Of a stretch of DNA of 41,889 nt, positions 9,873-30,964 are shown piece after piece. Numbering within the stretch: the stretch's first letter is position 1; each line of letters starts with the position of its first letter. The notes under the pieces were generated by a model that saw only the letters and a program-made list of their open reading frames with translations, made no database searches and was not told where the DNA came from. Made by a program: the position numbers and the translations under genes. This stretch comes from a virus, in the IMG/VR virus record IMGVR_UViG_3300003323_000498, positions 1 to 41,889 of that record, one strand, 5' to 3'.

Positions 9873-9936
9873 AGAACCCCGCGGCGAACACGATAGCGAT
9901 CATGATCATCAGCGCGACCACGGCGACTTGCTTCAC
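9823..9936 (-). CDS. Small single-span membrane protein
   Basis: A 37-residue reading frame with a GTG start whose GTGA overlaps the stop of the terminase large subunit. It encodes one strong transmembrane segment (VALMIMIAIVFAAGFYV) and an aromatic tail (FWEWVWLAIAG). The overlap pattern matches that of neighbouring genes, which is the main reason to think it is translated. Function is unknown; small single-span proteins in phages can assist lysis or membrane exclusion, but nothing here proves that. Confidence 0.5.
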   Translation of the reverse strand: MKQVAVVALMIMIAIVFAAGFYVSTAFWEWVWLAIAG

Positions 9937-11246
9937 GTGACAGCGTACCTCGGTCGATTGGCCTTCTGCTCCTGCCGCACGAGGCCAGGGAACAGCTCGT
10001 AGCACGCCCAGATCATAGCATCGGCCCGGTTGGGGCTCCCCTCGCCCATGTAGCCGGTGGTGCTGAACGACAGCAGCTCCTGTTCGAGCTCGCGGAACTC
10101 GCCCACGAATCGCACCTTGCCCGACTCGCAGAGGGCCGAGATCGGCTCCGCGCGCACGACCTTCCCGCGTGAGGCCGTCACCGCCTTGAATGGCGTTCGT
10201 GGACGTGCGGTCTGAATCGTATGCCCCACCATCGCGCCGCCGAAGTTGACCTCGCCCACCACGATATCGGCGGCGTGTCGATCGAATGCGCTCGTCGCGA
10301 TCTTGCCCCAGGTGAGCGGGCCCGCCTTCACGGAGCAATCCTCCAAGACGTAGCCGACGCCATCGCGTCCGAGCGCAGCCACCACGATGCCGATCTCGTC
10401 GTTCGCCTGGTTGTCCTCGTCGTCCGATCCTGACGGATCAACCCCCACCACGATGCGCTGCAGGTCCGGCAGGCTCGCATCGAGCACGCGCCAGCGCTCG
10501 AGCGTCGCCTCCGTCCAGAGCGCATTTGGATTGGCCTCGGCGAACTCCCCATGCAGGAAGCGCTTGCGCATCCGCTCGGGCATCGACTGCAGGGTGGCGA
10601 GGTACTCCGGCGCAAGGTTCGCGGTGTTGTCCGCCGGATTCATCTGCATGCATGCGTAGTTGGCAGGGTGCGCAATCTCCATGCGCGTCGTCGGGTCCAG
10701 CTTCGCGATGAAGATCAGGTACGTCCAATGGTTCTTCGGCGGCGGGTTGCAGTCGTAGTACATCCGCGGCTTCAGCGGCTCCGGCGGTAGCCCTTCGACG
10801 TTCTGCATCACCTGTTGCGCGAGCCGGGTCAGGGCGATGTCACGCGAGGACATGGCGATCTGGCTGCACTCGTTCAGGTAGATCGTCACGTACTCCTGGC
10901 CGAGTACCTTCTCCGTACGCTCCTTGTCGTCGAGACCGGCGAACCAGATGGTCGCGCCGTTATCGAACGATACGAACCAGTCGGTCTTGTCGAGGTGCCA
11001 CTTCACCTCGGGGAAGCACACCTCCATCACCTTCGGGAAGGTGTCGTAGATGATCGAGGCTTTCAGGTGGTTGAAGCGGAAGCGCAGGATGGCGTGGCGC
11101 GACTTCGGAGCCTTGAGTGCGCGCATGACGACGGCGCGCACCAGCAGGAACGTCTTTCCGGAACGCGAGCCGCCATACAGCAGGATATGCGTGGCAAGCC
11201 CAGCAAGAAGCGCTTGGGCTGCGAGCTGCCGATCGGTGAACTTCAT
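9933..11246 (-). CDS. Terminase large subunit
   Basis: A 437-residue packaging motor ATPase and nuclease. Walker A is GGSRSGKT (residues 25-32). Walker B with the catalytic acid is VTIYLNE (120-126). The coupling segment is YYDCNPPPKNHW (about 163-174). The C-terminal RNase-H-like nuclease carries acidic residues at D270 (VVGVDPSGS), E332 (VVGEVNFGG) and D409 (PNRADAMIW). It acts with the small subunit encoded 143 nt upstream. The genome being circular in the assembly fits either headful packaging or cohesive ends; I could not identify a cos site. Confidence 0.95.
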   Translation of the reverse strand: MKFTDRQLAAQALLAGLATHILLYGGSRSGKTFLLVRAVVMRALKAPKSRHAILRFRFNHLKASIIYDTFPKVMEVCFPEVKWHLDKTDWFVSFDNGATIWFAGLDDKERTEKVLGQEYVTIYLNECSQIAMSSRDIALTRLAQQVMQNVEGLPPEPLKPRMYYDCNPPPKNHWTYLIFIAKLDPTTRMEIAHPANYACMQMNPADNTANLAPEYLATLQSMPERMRKRFLHGEFAEANPNALWTEATLERWRVLDASLPDLQRIVVGVDPSGSDDEDNQANDEIGIVVAALGRDGVGYVLEDCSVKAGPLTWGKIATSAFDRHAADIVVGEVNFGGAMVGHTIQTARPRTPFKAVTASRGKVVRAEPISALCESGKVRFVGEFRELEQELLSFSTTGYMGEGSPNRADAMIWACYELFPGLVRQEQKANRPRYAVT

Positions 11247-12967: not shown

Positions 12968-13164
12968 CCGGTCTTCCCGTACCAAAAGCGCATGCGTTCC
13001 TCGATCCATGAGCGCTCACCAATGGGCTCACCGCCTGGCTCTTTGCCGATCTCAAGTGAATCGGTTTTGAGCCAGACGAGCTTCGCGCCGAATCTCTCGC
13101 GGAGTTGGTCAGCGACCGAGGTGAACTCGGGCCCCATGGCCTTTCTGATTTCTTCAGCCGTCAT
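12964..13164 (-). CDS. Small replication-region protein, unknown function
   Basis: A 66-residue protein (MTAEEIRKAMGPEFTSVADQ to FWYGKTG). It begins with ATGA overlapping the primase-helicase stop and ends with ATGA overlapping the nuclease-like gene, so it is part of the same translational chain. No family is recognised. Confidence 0.65.
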   Translation of the reverse strand: MTAEEIRKAMGPEFTSVADQLRERFGAKLVWLKTDSLEIGKEPGGEPIGERSWIEERMRFWYGKTG

Positions 13165-15059
13165 GTGCCGGCCTGTCCGGTTTGCATGTCCAAACCCGGT
13201 CCGTCAGAAAAACCCTTCGGGTTTTTTTCGGACACGGTGTCCGGCAGTACGGATTCGGACTTTTTGGACATTTTGGACATCACCTCATCCGGCAATCTGT
13301 ACCCACCAAAGGCACACGCGGTGAGGTACCACGTCGCCACGGCGGCACAGGTCTCCTGTGCGGTCTGTCGTTTCATGCCAAGCTCACGCGCGATACGCCG
13401 AAGCTCTGGCGGGCCCCATATCAGCGGCTTCTCACTCTTGGCTTGGAGATCCCTTAGCGCGCCGAGCAATTCGCGCTGGCGCAACCCCCGTGGCGCGTAG
13501 CCACGGGTTTCGGTTGCGACGGTCGAGCTGTCCACAGGGGTCAAGGCAAGAGAAGTTACCGGCCGCTCGTCGTCGTCGATCTCACACAAATCGACCACAT
13601 CCGCGCGGTAGGCCAGCGGGGGGAGATCGCCGCTGTCCTTGAATCGCTCCCGGCTCACGGTAATGGCCCGTTCGCCAGGAGCACGAGCAATCACATAGGC
13701 CGCGTCCGTATCCGCTTCCAATGCGGAAGCGCCACGGGCCCGGCCCTTCTCGATGTGCCCGGTGTGATGCACCAGAAGCACAGTTGCGCCGTACCGGCGC
13801 TTCAAGTGAACGTCGAGGTTGCCAATGAAGGCTTTCGCCTCGCTGTTCGAATTCTCATCCATTCCGCCCGAATTCTTCGAGAGCGTGTCGATGATGATGA
13901 GAACGGGTGGCGCTTCCAGCGCATCGATATCCGCACACAGCGCGGCGATCGATTCCAAGCTGTTGAAGTCCACGCGTTGCTCGAGCGCGTAGACCGGCAG
14001 ATTCTGCGGCTTGATGTTCGGCGCGTGTTTCATGAGCCACGCGCGAAAGCGCCGATCGATCCCACGACCCTCGGCGGAGATAATCACGACCGGATTGCCT
14101 TCGATCGCGATCGACATCGCCCAGTGGATGGCGACGAAGGACTTGTAGGTCCCGCGGGGGCCGAGCAGGATTCCAACCACGCCTTGCTCTATTACGTCGC
14201 GAATCAACCATTGCGGCCGCGTCGGCTCTGCGATGATCTCCGCGAGACGCTTCAGGCGCAGAGCTGGTTTTGCATCGTCGAGCCAATCGGAAACGTCTCG
14301 ATTGTCTTTCAGCGCATCCGCAAGGTCCCAGGCGTCCGGAAGGTCTTTGGCCTTGTCGGCTGGATCTACGGTGCGAATGCTGGCGGCGAGATCCTTCACA
14401 TGCTCGCGCACCCACGCCATTGCCTTGCGGCCAGGCTGATCACAATCTGGAATCAGCGTGAGCGCGCGCCCTTTGATGGGCATCCAGTCGGCTTGGCCGA
14501 CCGATTGAGCTCCACCCGGCCAGGTAGTCGAGATGTATTCGGGAAAGAGCCGCTGCGCGGCATGCGCTGTCTTCTCACCCTCGACGACGATGACCGGCTT
14601 GTCGGGCTCGGCCGCGAGGCGATCGAGCTGAAAGAGCGGCCGCGGATTTGGATGGTGTTGCCATTTCCACCCTTCCGGCGTCTTCACGATCGGGCGAATA
14701 TCCTTGCGTCCGCCGGGCTGCTGCCAACGGCAGACGCGCATGATCACTTGGCCATACGCGTCGCGGTAATCCCAATGCTGGTGATATTCGCCGAGCTGGA
14801 AGTGTTCTTCGGGAATGCCTTCGGTCTTGCGCGAGAGTTGCGCACCATTGGCTTCGAGTGCCTGCGCGATATCGCGATAGCTGCATCCGGCATAGCAAAC
14901 GAGCGCGAGCCCATCTTTGCCGTCAGCCAGAAAGAGCGACGGATTGCGATCATCGTGCGCCGGGCAGCATGCTTTCCAACCCGTGGGCGTCTTCTGCGGC
15001 TTCTTAAGTAACGCCGCGCAACGCTCCGCCCCCCAAGGTTGTGACATGACGGCCACCAT
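13161..15059 (-). CDS. Primase-helicase (CHC2-type zinc finger, TOPRIM, RepA-like ATPase)
   Basis: A 632-residue replication protein. I choose the ATG at 15057-15059, which overlaps the upstream stop as TGATG; an ATG 12 nt further in is an alternative. Residues 28-60 form a zinc-binding primase finger (CCPAHDD, then CYAGC). A TOPRIM-like domain follows (VVEGEKTA at 158-165; PDCDQPG at 204-210). The C-terminal half is a RecA-fold helicase: Walker A GPRGTYKS (300-307), Walker B VLIIID (386-391) and a sensor LLVHHTGH (428-435). It should prime and unwind at the phage fork. The last 40 codons have unusual repeats and a hairpin (see 13174-13279). Confidence 0.88.
   Translation of the reverse strand: MVAVMSQPWGAERCAALLKKPQKTPTGWKACCPAHDDRNPSLFLADGKDGLALVCYAGCSYRDIAQALEANGAQLSRKTEGIPEEHFQLGEYHQHWDYRDAYGQVIMRVCRWQQPGGRKDIRPIVKTPEGWKWQHHPNPRPLFQLDRLAAEPDKPVIVVEGEKTAHAAQRLFPEYISTTWPGGAQSVGQADWMPIKGRALTLIPDCDQPGRKAMAWVREHVKDLAASIRTVDPADKAKDLPDAWDLADALKDNRDVSDWLDDAKPALRLKRLAEIIAEPTRPQWLIRDVIEQGVVGILLGPRGTYKSFVAIHWAMSIAIEGNPVVIISAEGRGIDRRFRAWLMKHAPNIKPQNLPVYALEQRVDFNSLESIAALCADIDALEAPPVLIIIDTLSKNSGGMDENSNSEAKAFIGNLDVHLKRRYGATVLLVHHTGHIEKGRARGASALEADTDAAYVIARAPGERAITVSRERFKDSGDLPPLAYRADVVDLCEIDDDERPVTSLALTPVDSSTVATETRGYAPRGLRQRELLGALRDLQAKSEKPLIWGPPELRRIARELGMKRQTAQETCAAVATWYLTACAFGGYRLPDEVMSKMSKKSESVLPDTVSEKNPKGFSDGPGLDMQTGQAGT
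13174..13279. repeat. GGACA/TGTCC cluster and AT-rich hairpin in the primase 3' end
   Basis: Within 106 bp there are six copies of GGACA or its complement (13174, 13187, 13230, 13238, 13266, 13275). Two of them form the perfect palindrome CGGACAC-G-GTGTCCG at 13229-13243, and two are tandem TTTTGGACA repeats. Between them is a hairpin AAAAACCC-TTC-GGGTTTTT (13208-13226) that looks like a bidirectional intrinsic terminator. All of it lies inside the primase coding sequence, encoding a low-complexity Ser/Lys tail. Confidence 0.6.
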
Positions 15060-15184
15060 CAGCCGAAGAGGCGCGTGAGAACATTGAGCAGCCACAGCGG
15101 CGCGCCGTGGTGATACGCAAAGCGAACGATGCGCGAATAGCGCGTGTCCGCGTCGAGACTGGCGTCGGTTGTCCAGTCTCTCAA
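15059..15184 (-). CDS. Very small replication-leader protein
   Basis: A 41-residue frame with a TTG start at 15182-15184 overlapping the upstream stop as TTGA, preceded by a good AAGGA Shine-Dalgarno, and ending as TGATG over the primase start. It encodes RDWTTDASLDADTRYSRIVR and a hydrophobic end (APLWLLNVLTRLFG). No family is recognised; the coupled arrangement is the main support. Confidence 0.5.
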   Translation of the reverse strand: MRDWTTDASLDADTRYSRIVRFAYHHGAPLWLLNVLTRLFG

Positions 15185-15333
15185 GCACGTAATCCTTTTT
15201 CGCGCTCCAGGCGCTGTATCTGCTCGCGCATTTCGGAGAATGCTGCGGCCCTGCTCTCCCTGCACGCGGCATCACACAGCTCACGCCATGCGGCTTGGAT
15301 CAGCGCTTCGAGGGCATCGTCGCGGGCGCTCAT
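15181..15333 (-). CDS. Small coiled-coil protein
   Basis: A 50-residue frame (ATG at 15331-15333, overlapping the upstream stop as ATGA). It encodes MSARDDALEALIQAAWRELC followed by a charged helix (EMREQIQRLEREKGLRA) that should form a coiled coil. The function is unknown. Confidence 0.6.
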   Translation of the reverse strand: MSARDDALEALIQAAWRELCDAACRESRAAAFSEMREQIQRLEREKGLRA

Positions 15334-15977: not shown

Positions 15978-16190
15978 TCAGGCGCTCTTGCGCCTCGCGA
16001 AATCCGAGCACTTCAGCCTATGCAACTCATCGAGCTTCAGAGCCGCATCGCCCCGCGGGGCCGAGGAGCGCCCCTGCTCGATGTCGCTGATGGCCGATGG
16101 CGAGAGCCCGCAGAGCGAGCCAATCTCAGCCAAGGTCATTCCGATCGGCTCCTTTCGGAGGTCAGAGATGCGTGATGCCCATGTAGTCAT
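15978..16190 (-). CDS. Cro-like XRE-family regulator
   Basis: A 70-residue protein with a classic Cro/CI helix-turn-helix: MTLAEIGSLCGLSPSAISDI at about residues 18-37, then EQGRSSAPRGDAALKLDELH. It is the first gene of the leftward (lytic) arm and diverges from the CI-like gene, so by position it is the Cro equivalent. Its ATG is 7 nt after a -10-like TAAGGT box, so its mRNA is probably leaderless or nearly so. The operator at 16201-16217 overlaps this promoter. Confidence 0.82.
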   Translation of the reverse strand: MTTWASRISDLRKEPIGMTLAEIGSLCGLSPSAISDIEQGRSSAPRGDAALKLDELHRLKCSDFARRKSA

Positions 16191-16197
16191 GGGCCCT

Positions 16198-16227
16198 ACC
16201 TTACGAAAACCCGTAATTCACTGTCAA
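16198..16227 (-). promoter_or_regulatory. Leftward early promoter (cro-like gene)
   Basis: Minus-strand TTGACA (16222-16227), an 18-nt spacer and TAAGGT (16198-16203). The -35 box is perfect, the -10 box weak. Operator TTACG-N6-CGTAA lies across the spacer and -10 box. The start codon of the cro-like gene follows after 7 nt, predicting a leaderless transcript, as known for lambda cI from PRM. Confidence 0.65.
16201..16217. promoter_or_regulatory. Repressor operator O1
   Basis: TTACGAAAACCCGTAAT, an inverted repeat TTACG-N6-CGTAA. It differs at one position from the reverse complement of the site at 16703-16720. It lies in the 73-bp divergent intergenic region, covering the leftward promoter. 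Near it are CCGTTACGG (16235-16243) and an ACGGA-GT-TCCGT inverted repeat (16240-16251), likely further half-sites or a second operator. Confidence 0.75.
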
Positions 16228-16263
16228 CGACAACCCGTTACGGAGTTCCGTGAAAATGGTGGT

Positions 16264-16659
16264 ATGCCACGACCGCCAGGACTCCCGCGCTTCTCGACTC
16301 TCGGACCTCGCATCCGATGGTGGCGCGAACACCGCGGCCGCGACCGCCGCGAATTCGCGCGTGCGGTCGGCATTCCTTACAGCACGCTCGCGGACCTTGA
16401 GAATGATCGCGCGAAGTCAACCAAAAAACTTCGCCAAATCGCCGAGGAGCTGCGCCTGCGTCTCGATTATCTTGAGACGGATGAGGGCGAGCCCGAGGTC
16501 ACTGCCTCCCCTGCCGCCTCAGAATGGCCTCTGCCGGGCGTTCCGCGTGAACGCCTAGAAAGGCTCACGCGCATCGAGCGCGAACTTCTAGCATTCAAGC
16601 TCCGCGACATCCTCGACGATATCGAAGCCGATCGCCCGGCCACCCGTAAAACGGGCTGA
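16264..16659 (+). CDS. CI-like XRE-family repressor
   Basis: A 131-residue protein; ATG at 16264 preceded by GGTGG. The helix-turn-helix covers about residues 20-60: RRIR-type entry, DRREFARAVGIPYSTLADLE, then NDRAKSTKKLRQIAEELRLR. The C-terminal half (VPRERLERLTRIERELLAFK) is helical and may dimerise; there is no S24 peptidase domain, so it is not a LexA-like self-cleaving repressor and induction would need another route. It is the first gene of the rightward arm that leads to the integrase, so I interpret it as the lysogeny repressor. Confidence 0.8.
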   Translation: MPRPPGLPRFSTLGPRIRWWREHRGRDRREFARAVGIPYSTLADLENDRAKSTKKLRQIAEELRLRLDYLETDEGEPEVTASPAASEWPLPGVPRERLERLTRIERELLAFKLRDILDDIEADRPATRKTG

Positions 16660-16669
16660 TTTCACACTC

Positions 16670-16686
16670 CCGTAAATTTGTTACGG
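16670..16686. promoter_or_regulatory. Repressor operator-like inverted repeat O3
   Basis: CCGTAA-ATTTG-TTACGG, a perfect 6-bp inverted repeat with a 5-nt centre, 11 bp after the repressor stop codon. Half-sites match those of O1 and O4 but point the opposite way, so binding could be cooperative with the next site. Confidence 0.6.
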
Positions 16687-16693
16687 ATACCCG

Positions 16694-16722
16694 TTGACGC
16701 CGATTACGGGATTTCGTAATCT
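16694..16722 (+). promoter_or_regulatory. Rightward promoter for the accessory arm
   Basis: TTGACG (16694-16699), a 17-nt spacer and TAATCT (16717-16722), 38 nt before the first gene downstream. The inverted repeat at 16703-16720 overlaps the spacer and the -10 box. The arrangement is nearly a copy of the leftward early promoter, so the same repressor should control both. Confidence 0.65.
16703..16720. promoter_or_regulatory. Repressor operator O4
   Basis: ATTACG-GGATTT-CGTAAT, an 18-bp perfect inverted repeat arms-wise. Its reverse complement matches O1 (16201-16217) at 16 of 17 positions. It is placed over the promoter that follows the repressor gene. Confidence 0.75.
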
Positions 16723-16760
16723 GCTCTCCACGGTCAGCACTGACCGAACGGGAGGGCGAG

Positions 16761-17003
16761 ATGGCGAGCAACGACGGCATCCAGGGCAGCGGGCTCACAA
16801 GGCAGAGCAACAGCATCCGCACGGCAGACACTCGAATCATTCCAGTGAAGCGAGCGAACAAGGTTCAGACCGTCCAGAAACTGGAAAGCGGCGACCTGCA
16901 GGTAACGCTCTGCTCCGGCGATGTCTACACGATCGCGAAGGACGACGAGCTGTTTCAGGCCTTCGTGGTCTGGACCATGCTCAACAGCGAGTGCACGGAA
17001 TGA
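16761..17003 (+). CDS. First gene of rightward accessory operon, unknown function
   Basis: An 80-residue protein with a disordered N-terminal 25 residues and a small beta domain (IIPVKRANKVQTVQKLESGD, VTLCSGDVYTIAKDDELFQA). It is 38 nt downstream of the operator-controlled promoter. No family is recognised. It ends in an ATGA overlap with the next gene. Confidence 0.7.
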   Translation: MASNDGIQGSGLTRQSNSIRTADTRIIPVKRANKVQTVQKLESGDLQVTLCSGDVYTIAKDDELFQAFVVWTMLNSECTE

Positions 17004-19065: not shown

Positions 19066-19243
19066 TCTCGAAGTCCTCGGCTGGATCACCGTCGGGCTCT
19101 TCATGCTCGTGACCGTGATCACCTCCATCTGCGTCCACGAGGAGCGCAAAGAGCGCCGACGCCTGAACCGCTACCGGCCGACTCACGACAACCGATATCC
19201 GCACAGAGACGAGTGGCGGGCATTCATGAGGGATTGCAAATGA
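19058..19243 (+). CDS. Small single-span membrane protein
   Basis: A 61-residue protein with one N-terminal transmembrane helix (LGWITVGLFMLVTVITSICV) followed by a very basic cytoplasmic tail (HEERKERRRLNRYRP). It overlaps the neighbours by 8 and 4 nt. The function is unknown; small membrane proteins expressed with the immunity arm can act in superinfection exclusion, but that is speculation here. Confidence 0.65.
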   Translation: MGDLEVLGWITVGLFMLVTVITSICVHEERKERRRLNRYRPTHDNRYPHRDEWRAFMRDCK

Positions 19244-20379
19244 GCATGTTGAAGAAGGCAACCAACAAGATGGCCTACGCGAAGGTTGGCATCTACGGCG
19301 GCCAAGGCGCCGGCAAGTCCCGCACTGCTGCGGAGATCGCGATCGGACTTTACAAGCACGCGAAGTGCGACAAGCCCGTTGCCATGTTCGATACAGAGCC
19401 GGGTGCCTCGTTCCTGATTCCGCTGTTTGAAAAGGCCGGCATCGAGTTCATGGTGTACGACGAGAGTCGCGCATTCACCGATCTGATGAAGTGGATGTAT
19501 GAAGCCCGCGAGGCCTGCAGCGTGCTCATCATCGATTCCATCACGCACATCTGGCGCGATCTGCAGAAGTCATATCTGGCGCGCATCAATGATCACCGAC
19601 GTCAGAAGGCCGAGAATGCGGGTTGGACGTTCAGGCCGCTGACCAGCCTCGAGTTCCAGCACTGGGGGCCAATCAAGCAGGAGTGGGAAGAGTTCACTGA
19701 TGCTTTCCTATCGTCCAAGGTTCACACAATCGTATGCGGCCGTGCCGGCAGTGTGTACGAGTACCAGGAGAACGAGGACAAGGGCGGCAAGAAGGAACTC
19801 ATCACCGTCGGAACCAAGATGGCGACGGAAAAAGAGATGGGTCACGAGCCGTCTCTGCTCATCGAAATGGAACGCCGCTACGACGACGGCAAGATCGTAA
19901 ACACGGCCGTCATCGAGAAGGATCGAGCGGACAAGCTCAACGGTCGAGAGATTGCGTTCCCGACGTTCGAAAAGCTACGCGCGCACTTCGATTGTCTCGC
20001 CCTTGGCGGAGAGCACTTCGGCTCGTTGAGCGGTCGTGATTCGCGCGAACGTTTCTCAGACGCCGCCGAGGACTCGTTCGCAGGCGAGATGCGCCGGAAG
20101 GAAGTGGCGCTCGACGAGATCAAGGAAGAAATTCTCAGCCACCTTGGACACGGTATGGACGCCGGCACCAAGGCCGCCAAGTCCGCACTGCTGGAGAAGA
20201 TCGCGGGCACGCGCTCCTGGGCAAAGCTCGAATCGATGAAGCTCAGTGACGTTCAGCGCATCCGGAACGATCTGTGGGTGGAAACGCGCGGGCACAGATA
20301 CGGGGAGCAGCCGGCACCTGCGGTGCCCACTGAAGACGCGCAGCCTGCCGAACAGCAGAAGACCGAGGCTGCCGCGTGA
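19240..20379 (+). CDS. Phage RecA-core ATPase (Sak4/AAA_24-like)
   Basis: A 379-residue protein whose first 250 residues are a RecA-type nucleotide-binding domain: Walker A GGQGAGKS (20-27), an acidic strand VAMFDTEPG (47-55) and Walker B VLIIDS (95-100). This is the architecture of phage AAA_24 proteins, including Sak4-like single-strand annealing recombinases. The C-terminal third (KEVALDEIKEEILSHLGHGM onward) is helical and ends in a disordered Pro/Ala/Glu tail. With the HNH protein two genes downstream it likely forms a recombination module. ATG overlaps the previous stop. Confidence 0.75.
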   Translation: MSMLKKATNKMAYAKVGIYGGQGAGKSRTAAEIAIGLYKHAKCDKPVAMFDTEPGASFLIPLFEKAGIEFMVYDESRAFTDLMKWMYEAREACSVLIIDSITHIWRDLQKSYLARINDHRRQKAENAGWTFRPLTSLEFQHWGPIKQEWEEFTDAFLSSKVHTIVCGRAGSVYEYQENEDKGGKKELITVGTKMATEKEMGHEPSLLIEMERRYDDGKIVNTAVIEKDRADKLNGREIAFPTFEKLRAHFDCLALGGEHFGSLSGRDSRERFSDAAEDSFAGEMRRKEVALDEIKEEILSHLGHGMDAGTKAAKSALLEKIAGTRSWAKLESMKLSDVQRIRNDLWVETRGHRYGEQPAPAVPTEDAQPAEQQKTEAAA

Positions 20380-23494: not shown

Positions 23495-23998
23495 GTGACC
23501 GATCTGGCAGGTAAGGACTACTTCACCATTCCCGAGGCGGCGCACTACTGCTGCGTCTCGGTCTCGCAGTTCCGCGAGAAGGTGAAGCAGGCCGGCCTGG
23601 AACCTGGCCGACTCTGGGGTAAAGTTGTCTATCGACGGGTGGATCTGGCTCGGCTGGTCGAACAAGAACTCCAATGGCCACAATCTACTGGCGAGGCAAG
23701 CGGGCATATCTCAATTGGTCAGCCGACGGTGTCCAGCACCGCAAGTCCCTTGGACCGGTTTCGCCGCACGTCGCCGAAAACAAGAGGCTCGCGAAAGAAC
23801 TCGAACTCCGAACCGGCGTCCAGCTCTTCAAGCCGTCCGAACTCTTCGGAGTCACCGCGGTTCGATACCTCGACTGGCATCGATTCCAGTATCCCGACTC
23901 ACATGCCCGCGTCCGATTCATCGTCGAGCACCGCCTTACCAAGTTCCACGATCGTCCCTTGGCCGCACTCGAGCAGGGAGAGATCGAGAAATGGGTAG
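23495..23998 (+). CDS. Excisionase-like HTH protein with long overlap into integrase
   Basis: Residues 1-60 form a winged-helix excisionase domain (DYFTIPEAAHYCCVSVSQFR, then KVVYRRVDLARLVEQEL). I prefer the GTG at 23495, which has GAGGGA upstream; a GTG at 23480 is possible. An excisionase of this kind should end near 23680, just before the integrase ATG, but the frame continues without a stop to 23998. It therefore overlaps the integrase by 325 nt as a Ser/Pro-rich tail that looks like out-of-frame integrase sequence. Either the stop was lost by a small indel or the tail is tolerated. Product: directionality factor for prophage excision. Confidence 0.6.
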   Translation: MTDLAGKDYFTIPEAAHYCCVSVSQFREKVKQAGLEPGRLWGKVVYRRVDLARLVEQELQWPQSTGEASGHISIGQPTVSSTASPLDRFRRTSPKTRGSRKNSNSEPASSSSSRPNSSESPRFDTSTGIDSSIPTHMPASDSSSSTALPSSTIVPWPHSSRERSRNG

Positions 23999-24663
23999 TC
24001 GCCCGCGCATCAGAGGTAAAGGCGCAGACCGTCGAGAAAGAACTGCGCACGCTCAAAGCGCTATTGAACAAGGCGGTCGAGTGGAGGAAGGAAACCGGGC
24101 TGGAAGAGAACCCGGCAGAGAACGTCGCGCCACCGCAGAACGTCGAAAGCGAGCCGATTCACTGGTATCGGCCGCCCGAGCTCAAACGGCTCTACAAGAA
24201 GGACCGCATGCATGCAGCCTGCTGGCAGTTCCTGGCGAACACGGGGCTGCGCCGGCGCGAGGCCATGCATCTGCGGTGGGACGATATTCGGGACGGGTCG
24301 GTGTGGGTCTCAAGCCGGCCTGGTGCACGGACGAAATCGGCGAAGTGGCGGCAGATTCCCCTCTCCCCCGGCGCGGCAACTGCGCTCGCGAAGCTGAGGC
24401 GTGGAAACAAGAGCATCTACGTTCTGCCGAGGATGGCAAAAGAGAGCTGGTCGAGAGCCTTCGCCAAAGCCACGGAGAGAGCCAGTCTTGGCGGGTCGCT
24501 CCACTCGCTGCGGCACACCTTCGCCGCCAATCTTGTAGTCCAGGGCGTGAACCTGCGCGTCGTGCAGAAGCTGATGGGCCACGCGACCATCAAGACGACG
24601 GAACAGTATGCCCACGTAGCGGGCACGACCCTCGAAAGTGCGGTCGAGGGTCTGAAGCTCTAG
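23674..24663 (+). CDS. Tyrosine-recombinase integrase
   Basis: A 329-residue phage integrase. The N-terminal arm-binding part is beta-rich (ATIYWRGKRAYLNWSADG), the core-binding domain spans about 60-155 and the catalytic domain about 160-329. Active-site residues are visible: R193 (TGLRRREAMHLRW), K221 (TKSAKWRQIPL), H277 and R280 (HSLRHTF), H303 (LMGHATIKTT) and the nucleophile Y312 (EQYAHV). It inserts the phage into a host tRNA-Glu gene, judging by the attP 98 nt downstream. The start codon lies inside the excisionase frame. Confidence 0.92.
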   Translation: MATIYWRGKRAYLNWSADGVQHRKSLGPVSPHVAENKRLAKELELRTGVQLFKPSELFGVTAVRYLDWHRFQYPDSHARVRFIVEHRLTKFHDRPLAALEQGEIEKWVVARASEVKAQTVEKELRTLKALLNKAVEWRKETGLEENPAENVAPPQNVESEPIHWYRPPELKRLYKKDRMHAACWQFLANTGLRRREAMHLRWDDIRDGSVWVSSRPGARTKSAKWRQIPLSPGAATALAKLRRGNKSIYVLPRMAKESWSRAFAKATERASLGGSLHSLRHTFAANLVVQGVNLRVVQKLMGHATIKTTEQYAHVAGTTLESAVEGLKL

Positions 24664-24760: not shown

Positions 24761-24808
24761 TGGCGTCCCCAAGGGGATTCGAACCCCTGTTACCGCCGTG
24801 AAAGGGCG
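24761..24808 (-). other. attP: attP core: 3' half of tRNA-Glu(UUC)
   Basis: Read on the minus strand this is the 3' half of a bacterial tRNA-Glu gene: anticodon stem-loop CGCCCTTTCACGGCG with anticodon TTC, variable loop, T arm (GGGGTTCGAATCCCC) and GGGGACGCCA at the end. Only the 3' half is present, so it is not a functional tRNA. It lies just after the integrase gene and restores the tRNA on integration. As phage genes continue on both sides, this genome is in the unintegrated (circular) form. Confidence 0.88.
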
Positions 24809-24848
24809 ATGGAGAACCCGCCAAGATCAATCGACTAGCTGCCCATGT

Positions 24849-24997: not shown

Positions 24998-25636
24998 ATG
25001 GGCCCGGCACCGAAGGACATTACCGGGCTGCGCTTCCATCGGCTCATCGCCTTGGAACTCGTCGAGGTGCGCAAGGGCAAGCGCGATCGAGTCAGACTTT
25101 GGCGCTGCCGCTGCGACTGCGGGAACGAGCCCACCGTCACGCAGCGAAACCTGACCGCCGGGGACACGAAGTCTTGCGGCTGCATCATCGGCAAACACAA
25201 GCGCACGCATGGTGGAACAGGCACCACTGAGTTCCGCATCTGGGACAGCATGCGTCGCCGCTGTAGCGACCCTAAGCACCCTTCCTACCCAGATTACGGC
25301 GGACGCGGCATCCGCGTATGCGAGTCCTGGCAGGACTTCGCTACCTTCCGTCAGGACATGGGGTTGCGGCCATCGCCAAATCACTCGATCGACCGAATCG
25401 ACAACGACGGTCCGTATGCGCCCGACAACTGCCGGTGGGCCACGATGGTGGACCAGAGCAACAACCGCCGAAGCAGTCGGATACTCACGGTCAACGGCGA
25501 AACGCTGACCATGGCGCAATGGGAGCGCCGCACTGGGCTCAAGCCTGGAACCGTGTTCAAGCGCCTAGCGCAGGGCTGGCCGCCTGAACAGGCCGTAACG
25601 CAAGCGCCTCGGAAGTATCGAGGTCAGTCAGCATGA
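24998..25636 (+). CDS. HNH-type homing endonuclease-like protein
   Basis: A 212-residue protein of a common phage family. The N-terminal zinc site has C37, C39 and C41 (WRCRCDCG) and C60/C62 (KSCGC). Then come YGGRGIRVCESW and the HNH-like core HSIDRIDNDGPY (129-140) with NCRWAT (144-149), and a C-terminal DNA-binding helix-turn-helix (MAQWERRTGLKPGTVFKRLA). Such genes are often mobile and inserted between phage genes; it is the first gene after attP. Whether it still cuts DNA cannot be told from sequence. Confidence 0.78.
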   Translation: MGPAPKDITGLRFHRLIALELVEVRKGKRDRVRLWRCRCDCGNEPTVTQRNLTAGDTKSCGCIIGKHKRTHGGTGTTEFRIWDSMRRRCSDPKHPSYPDYGGRGIRVCESWQDFATFRQDMGLRPSPNHSIDRIDNDGPYAPDNCRWATMVDQSNNRRSSRILTVNGETLTMAQWERRTGLKPGTVFKRLAQGWPPEQAVTQAPRKYRGQSA

Positions 25637-28211: not shown

Positions 28212-28438
28212 AACGACACGTCACAAAGGAAGGCATCGAGGTTTGGCCGGGCCAATGCTGGCGCGACTTGGATCATCGCATGGGCGACCGCAAGCGCTAC
28301 GTCATCGCAATCGACGACGAGAAGGGCAAAGCGCAGATGGCCGACTCGATGACCTCTCGCCATACCACATGGGTTTCGATCCGCCGGATGCACAAGCACA
28401 GCACAGGCTGGGCGCTGGTTTCCGATGTGCCTCGTTGA
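28208..28438 (+). CDS. Small accessory protein, unknown function
   Basis: A 76-residue protein with VWPGQCWRDLDHRMGDRKRY and IRRMHKHSTGWALVSD, resembling a short family of beta-barrel phage proteins of unknown function. ATGA overlap with the Lar-like gene. Confidence 0.68.
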   Translation: MKRHVTKEGIEVWPGQCWRDLDHRMGDRKRYVIAIDDEKGKAQMADSMTSRHTTWVSIRRMHKHSTGWALVSDVPR

Positions 28439-28466
28439 CTACATCGAAATGCGGGAGACTGACCGG

Positions 28467-28946
28467 ATGACAAACGAGCAGAGCTTGCTTCCGTGCCCGT
28501 TCTGCGGCAGCACCGACCTTGGCCTACAACGCAAAGCCGACCCAAGTCCGCCTAGCTATCCAGACGGCGTATGCGTGATCGAGTGTTTCGGATGCGGTGC
28601 GCTAGGGCCGTTCTGCGAGGAAGATCAGAACGCCGCAAAGGCATGGAACGATCGGGGCAGGCCTATCCATACATGCGAAACGCGATCGTACTGTGACGCA
28701 TGCGATGCTGATGCCAGAGGCACTGCCGAACCGAAAGCGGACGTTCCGCTCTGGATGTGTCGCGGGAAGTATGAGGGTATCTGGGTCTACTTCCGCCCTG
28801 GCGAGACTCGCATGGAGGTCTACGACATCATCATGGAGAAGGCGCGAAAAGAAGGGTTCCGCGGGACCATTCAAGAGCGTCTGAAGGAACTCGGGTGGGA
28901 AGTGGTGCCTATGAAGGCATACCTAGACTTAGCTGAGAACCGGTGA
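28467..28946 (+). CDS. Lar-like zinc-finger protein with extra C-terminal domain
   Basis: A 159-residue protein. I choose the ATG at 28467 (MTNEQSLLPCPFCGSTDLGL), since the Lar-like motif follows at once; upstream ATGs at 28425 and 28449 are alternatives. The first 55 residues are a Lar-like zinc domain (CPFCG, then CFGCGALGPF, ending AAKAWNDRG). The rest (ETRSYCDACDAD, then VPLWMCRGKYEGIWVYFRPG) is of unknown function. Together with the gene at 27978 it gives two Lar-type proteins in one phage. Confidence 0.68.
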   Translation: MTNEQSLLPCPFCGSTDLGLQRKADPSPPSYPDGVCVIECFGCGALGPFCEEDQNAAKAWNDRGRPIHTCETRSYCDACDADARGTAEPKADVPLWMCRGKYEGIWVYFRPGETRMEVYDIIMEKARKEGFRGTIQERLKELGWEVVPMKAYLDLAENR

Positions 28947-30642: not shown

Positions 30643-30659
30643 TACTCGTGTGGCGAGTA
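30643..30659. promoter_or_regulatory. Palindromic operator between XRE and CsrA genes
   Basis: TACTCG-TGTGG-CGAGTA, a perfect inverted repeat of the size typical for XRE repressors. It falls in the spacer of a candidate rightward promoter, GCGACA (30635-30640), 17 nt, TATTCT (30658-30663), about 80 nt before the csrA-like start. Its half-sites differ from those of the main operators (TTACG), so a different protein should bind. Confidence 0.6.
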
Positions 30660-30745
30660 TTCTAAATTCAGACCCTGGCATCTGTACTGCAGCGCACATT
30701 TGCGCCGCTGTGCGGCCACGAATTCGAAGGATAGGAGAGCAACGA

Positions 30746-30964
30746 ATGCTCATACTCCTCAGGCGCCCAGGTGAGAAGATCTACATCGGGGACGATGTCA
30801 CGATCACGGTGCTGAGCCTCAAAGGATGCCAAGTCCGCATCGGCATCACTGCGCCAAAGCACTTGCCCGTACACCGCGAAGAGATCTACGAGCGCATCAA
30901 GCGCGAGCAGCAAGAGAATGCTGAAGACGGCGAGCCGGCCGGCAAGGCAGAGTTCGCGCGCTGA
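30746..30964 (+). CDS. csrA: CsrA/RsmA-family translational regulator
   Basis: A 72-residue CsrA homologue (about 61 in E. coli) with a strong Shine-Dalgarno (AGGAGAG). The first 50 residues fit the family throughout: [45 protein letters not shown]. Key RNA-binding residues L4, R6 and R44 are present. CsrA dimers bind GGA motifs in mRNA leaders and alter translation. The C-terminal tail (about 52-72) is extra, acidic and disordered. A phage-borne copy could reprogramme host carbon storage, motility or biofilm genes, or act on phage mRNAs. Confidence 0.9.

Follow-up and report, generated by a model that had tools for sequence, protein, structure and literature searches.

Gene layout around the divergent repressor genes

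The stretch of DNA analyzed here (the window) is an entire virus record of 41,889 bases. Its genes form two arms that diverge between a pair of putative repressor genes. The leftward, lytic arm begins with a cro-like repressor gene (15978..16190, minus strand, 70 aa) and also includes the primase/helicase (13161-15284) and terminase (9933-11246) genes. The Cro protein matches HTH_3 (9e-08), HTH_31 (6e-08) and a PHROG of transcriptional repressors, and its relatives could be found and aligned. The rightward arm, counted from 16264, consists of the CI-like repressor gene (16264..16659, plus strand, 131 aa) and then a long run of small genes. The CI-like protein has an HTH_3 domain and a C-terminal helix, with no S24 peptidase domain. 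Past cI, the first gene of the rightward arm (16761..17003, plus strand, 80 aa) has a Shine-Dalgarno leader, in contrast to cro and cI. Its product has one relative and sub-threshold Pfam matches only, and no PHROGs family was found for it at E≤0.01. Farther along the same arm are the genes for a Sak4-like annealing protein (19213-20379) and a tyrosine integrase (23674..24663, plus strand; PF00589 at 24211-24621, E = 2.3e-27). Because these two proteins are encoded there, the arm is better named the counterpart of the lambda left arm than the 'accessory arm' of the preliminary description.

Several other features of the rightward arm were observed. The 51 bp directly 3' of the integrase gene (24761-24811) are ~96-98% identical to the 3' part of tRNA-Glu genes; no complete tRNA is predicted at these positions, and the segment is likely to be the attP core for integration at tRNA-Glu. 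The arm also encodes a Lar-type restriction alleviation protein (28425-28946, plus strand; PF14354, E = 5e-08) and, near its distal end, a CsrA-family protein (30650-30964, plus strand; PF02599, E = 5e-24).

In lambda, cI lies between OR and OL with cro divergent from it, cI points to the PL promoter and the integrase gene is on the PL side; the operators comprise 3+3 sites. The window shares with lambda and P22 a cI gene between two operator sets, a divergent cro, the co-directionality of cI with a PL-type promoter and the integrase on the PL side, all arranged as a mirror image. Features typical of a lambda-type immunity region are found here: divergent cI and cro with predicted operators in between, three of them (O1-O3) common to the cro and cI promoters (the OR unit), and a second set of the same sequence past cI, on the promoter of the other arm (the OL unit). 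The window differs from lambda and P22 in having one operator per promoter hexamer, a 3 bp overlap of O2 and O3, 3+2 sites, a CI without the S24 domain and a cro that is apparently leaderless too.

Predicted operators and promoters in the window

We identified five predicted operators within 520 bp, each a 16-bp palindrome with the consensus TTACGG-N4-CCGTAA. Three are located between cro and cI and two on the rightward promoter immediately 3' of cI. O1 (16201..16216; matrix score 16.9) matches the motif exactly and covers the -10 hexamer of the cro promoter, while the degenerate O2 (16225..16240; 13.9), whose position is kept in relatives, covers its -35 hexamer. O3 (16238..16253; 17.7) shares 3 bp with O2 and is located at the predicted cI promoter. 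In the OL unit, O4 (16681..16696; 17.1) is on the -35 and O5 (16704..16719; 20.0, the best score of the window) on the -10 hexamer of the rightward promoter. Each unit thus has one operator per promoter hexamer, with a half-site of the -35 operator extending into TTGAC, and the operators are spaced by 24 bp in the cro unit and 23 bp in the rightward unit. Promoters and start sites are consensus readings throughout. The cro promoter (16198..16227, minus strand) reads TTGACA-N18-TAAGGT and the rightward promoter, the PL counterpart (16694..16722, plus strand), TTGACG-N17-TAATCT, both as the preliminary description had given them. The predicted -10 hexamer of the cI promoter, GAAAAT (16252..16257, plus strand), ends 6 nt 5' of the cI start codon.

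The twin operator-promoter units described earlier were confirmed in the sequence. The exact motif TTACG-N6-CGTAA has only two copies in the window, O1 (16201-16216) and O5 (16704-16719), and the window-wide search for further copies that the preliminary description had proposed found it nowhere else. The 17-mers of these two sites are identical at 16 of 17 positions when compared in inverted orientation, also as described. With one mismatch allowed there are 3 matches compared with 0.39 expected, a count reached in 1 of 100 shuffles. A looser scan (up to 3 mismatches) gave 10 sites versus 8.0 expected, a number that by itself is not above chance; the case for the predicted operators is therefore one of clustering and conservation, not of the loose-scan count. 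A weight matrix built on the operators of relatives, with the window excluded, ranks O1-O5 as the first five sites of the window, the next being at 25402 with a score of 9.4. The best score in each of 30 mononucleotide shuffles averaged 11.3, the largest being 17.8.

As to the number of operators, which is five, the preliminary description had undercounted them, giving two sites plus two odd repeats. We rejected both repeats as separate sites. CCGTTACGG (16235-16243) is the junction of the overlapping O2 and O3. CCGTAA-N5-TTACGG at 16670 borrows the left half of O4, and its extra half-site is not generally kept among relatives. Since a CCGTAA half upstream of the OL unit was seen in only one other row (L049), its presence at 16670 is probably due to chance.

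Conservation of the units and start codons among relatives

Relatives were collected in two ways. Nine loci were found through the Cro protein alone and thus represent a set unbiased by the motif. All nine have O1 and O3 beside cro, and all seven with long enough DNA have the OL unit, one of them (L005) with a weaker O4. A stringent scan with the unit motif produced 51 viral-contig and 10 bacterial genome-contig stretches; the hosts with names are Stenotrophomonas, Rhodanobacter, Luteimonas, a Lysobacteraceae strain and MAGs including Methylotenera. As the motif itself served to collect most of the relatives, conservation in the motif-found loci is partly the result of selection. No strand of 31 whole records has more than one copy of the unit, and the reversed pattern, used as a control, was present in 0 of 31. 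Under a relaxed definition, two units are present in 45 of 58 representative loci, which are not all independent (L072, L075 and L091, for example, have one common OR segment); in 45 of 45 cases the two units fire outward, at a distance of 0.4-2.1 kb. The remaining 13 loci showed a single unit, several of them because the DNA stretch is short and one, L052, because its two units overlap. The overlapping units of that locus (L052:88-160) point outward without an intervening cI, so that the cI segment may be lacking or placed at another position.

In the relatives, OR is flanked by divergently encoded HTH proteins, Cro and CI, and a third operator is present at the cro/cI unit and absent from the other unit. 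An OR unit with O3 is recognizable in 48 loci. In two more, L045 and L049, the unit next to the Cro relative lacks O3, and the Methylotenera-type loci L068 and L069 have a different Cro/CI pair at the same positions. Among named phages, there was no match by tblastn with the Cro or CI of the window and none by blastn with the OR unit of a relative. Using tblastn with the Cro of one relative we found only the Acidovorax phage Aval, while the Cro of a second relative matched Streptococcus satellite phages only, and these at the HTH level.

Within a genome, the operators of OR and OL are alike to a degree far above chance. Among 34 distinct genomes with two units, O1 and the OL -10 operator of the same genome agree at 4.26 of 6 variable positions, compared with 2.86 after shuffling, and 0 of 2000 shuffles reached the observed value. 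The pairs of O1 with the OL -35 operator, of O2 with both OL operators and of the OL operators with each other are also above shuffles. When only one genome per Cro clade was kept (n = 17), a rough guard that lessens shared ancestry but leaves some of it, no shuffle reached the O1-OL match in any of 40 draws. Phage Aval has a variant half-site, TAACGG instead of the TTACGG of the window, at OR and OL alike. O3 does not covary with the others: 650 of 2000 shuffles were as good for O1-O3 and 346 of 2000 for O3 and the OL -10 operator. This would be expected if a different balance of CI and Cro binds O3 or if the cI promoter constrains it. Because of this within-genome likeness of OR and OL together with the two-unit layout in 45 of 58 loci, the earlier claim that a single recognition sequence serves the cro, cI and rightward-arm promoters is well supported, the binder being a predicted one.

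The OL unit might alternatively be a decayed duplicate of the cro promoter without any regulatory role, a possibility to which we give very little weight. The two units are indeed alike in layout. However, the OL units fit the strict pattern at least as well as the OR units do (0-1 mismatches of 24 in most rows), they consistently lack O3, and in 29 of 34 cases a Shine-Dalgarno-led start comes after them. The sites could also be read by a host regulator of the same consensus, which is highly improbable: seven host genomes have just one or two copies of the unit, two copies always being a close outward pair. A looser pattern, applied to 398 genomes of the order, matched 7 genomes against 9 for the reversed control. 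Apart from close pairs, the order-wide matches thus do not exceed the control and therefore give no sign of a host regulon of the unit. With the control at 9 of 398 genomes and the pattern at 7 of 398, this search was discarded as an estimate of prevalence.

The start codons of cro and cI also keep near-fixed places. In the window, the cro start codon is 7 nt past the -10 hexamer. Among the OR loci this distance is 6, 7 or 8 nt in 47 of 48 (the exception is L052), a range bounded by the search, which covered 8-16 nt past the unit, and with which the homologous N-termini agree. In one subclade (L009, L012, L013 and L093) the promoter sits 3 bp away from its usual place with respect to O1, and the ATG has moved with it; therefore, the ATG tracks the promoter and not the operator. 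The cI start lies 23-25 nt past the unit in 44 of 44 loci, in most of them with an AAT-ending hexamer 6-8 nt upstream; A, A and T are found at positions -9, -8 and -7 in 31, 30 and 31 of 35 distinct contexts. We rejected an in-frame alternative for the cI start, located 25 codons upstream at 16189, as 44 of 44 CIs begin at the fixed place.

Of 35 distinct contexts, 2 have a Shine-Dalgarno tetramer 5' of cro, each time within the -10 hexamer itself, and none of 35 has one 5' of cI. The control in this comparison is internal and consists of the OL first genes, whose transcripts have a Shine-Dalgarno-led start in the same 29 of 34 cases and an ATG 7-8 nt past the -10 hexamer in only 6 of 34. All open reading frames of ≥200 aa, among which 44 of 261 have a Shine-Dalgarno sequence at the first ATG and 69 have one when the first four are considered, proved unfit as a control, since these frames are mechanical. 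Because their start codons stand at a near-fixed short distance past the predicted -10 hexamers, the cro and cI mRNAs both look leaderless, starting at the start codons. The predicted OL transcript of the window opens with a perfect short hairpin, CGGTCAG-CA-CTGACCG (16732-16747). We considered it as a candidate antitermination site; the OL leaders of many relatives fold weakly or otherwise.

The repressors and the proposed switch

The CI and Cro proteins differ in how well they are conserved. Single-linkage clustering unites all 47 Cro proteins at 50% identity, whereas the CIs separate into 7 clusters at 40%, yet the operator is unchanged. This would favor Cro rather than CI as the reader of all five sites, with CI confined to OR. 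We nevertheless consider such an arrangement improbable. The recognition helices of the two proteins in the window, PYSTLADLE (CI) and SPSAISDIE (Cro), are similar, and a lysogenic repressor requires just such operators, placed on the -35 and -10 hexamers of both arms; with Cro alone shutting the second arm, a lysogen could not stay silent. In Stenotrophomonas-type relatives (L072:2263-2718 and similar), Cro has an extra conserved C-terminal part of ~80 aa.

By length, 44 CIs divide into 26 long and 18 short ones. In a domain scan of ten, Peptidase_S24 was detected in 4 of 5 long CIs (215-235 aa; the exception is that of L077) and in 0 of 5 short ones (131-167 aa), which include the CI of the window; the latter thus lacks the domain of the self-cleaving lambda CI family. 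The same operators are therefore paired both with S24-peptidase CIs and with short CIs devoid of S24. For the S24-type CI of one relative, lambdoid repressors were found as matches at ~32-35% over 96%. In an AlphaFold2 model (17 sequences; mean pLDDT 81.3, pTM 0.53), the CI of the window has an HTH domain that a linker joins to a long C-terminal helix, and in a Foldseek search the HTH part alone matched solved structures well (P22 c2 and 434 Cro). Because the CI is short and has no S24 domain, RecA-assisted self-cleavage is unlikely for the phage of the window. An ImmA-type metalloprotease (PF06114) able to inactivate a short CI was sought in the window and not found.

Taken together, the region is, with a probability of about 0.9, a temperate-phage immunity region laid out as a mirror image of lambda OR/OL, with predicted CI sites that would silence both arms. 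We infer CI and Cro as the binders, along with the order of occupancy, the autoregulation and the mRNA starts at start codons. The short CI, presumably a dimer, would bind all five operators (TTACGG-N4-CCGTAA). By occupying O1 and O2, which cover the -10 and -35 hexamers of the cro promoter, it would shut the leftward lytic arm. Through O4 and O5, which cover the -35 and -10 hexamers of the rightward promoter, it would shut the integrase/recombination arm. Binding at O3 and through the O2/O3 overlap would restrain transcription of its own gene. Cro would compete at O3 and at the overlap, favoring lysis.

In the literature searched on such switches we found no description of the operator system of these phages. 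The closest parallel for its start codons is the telomere phage PY54, for which the report, as far as we could consult it, gives one leaderless mRNA each for cI and cro, determined by RACE, and a 16-bp palindromic operator between the two genes (PMC4488713). The window likewise has 16-bp palindromic predicted operators between cI and cro, with PY54 the case in which leaderless mRNAs are proven. According to the same parts of that report, the PY54 Cro binds a single site, and they describe no second operator set 3' of cI (PMC4488713). Phage Aval (OP131589) is cultured and, in the portion of the paper available to us, is taken as temperate by its authors (PMC11619371). It has a Cro relative, twin units of the same geometry as in the window and a cro ATG 7 nt past the -10 hexamer, with the cro gene unannotated in the record OP131589. 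Its CI, unlike the short CI of the window, has 220 aa and an S24-like motif seen by eye.

A broader reading, which we put forward tentatively and regard as somewhat less probable than its opposite, is that one immunity platform, with the same operator code, the same Cro family and leaderless switch mRNAs, operates with two kinds of CI, an SOS-cleavable S24 type and a short type devoid of S24. If so, prophages with opposite modes of induction could recognize the same operators and repress one another at them, and the lysis-lysogeny decision would depend on both competitors being translated from leaderless mRNAs.

Beside PY54, the phages described here provide an apparent case of a switch with both mRNAs leaderless, conserved over many genomes. 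They also form a natural series that combines one operator system with cleavable and, judged by domain content, non-cleavable repressors. For this large and mostly uncultured phage group, with hosts including Stenotrophomonas, Rhodanobacter, Luteimonas and Methylotenera, the operator code is readable from sequence, and immunity groups could thereby be predicted from DNA.
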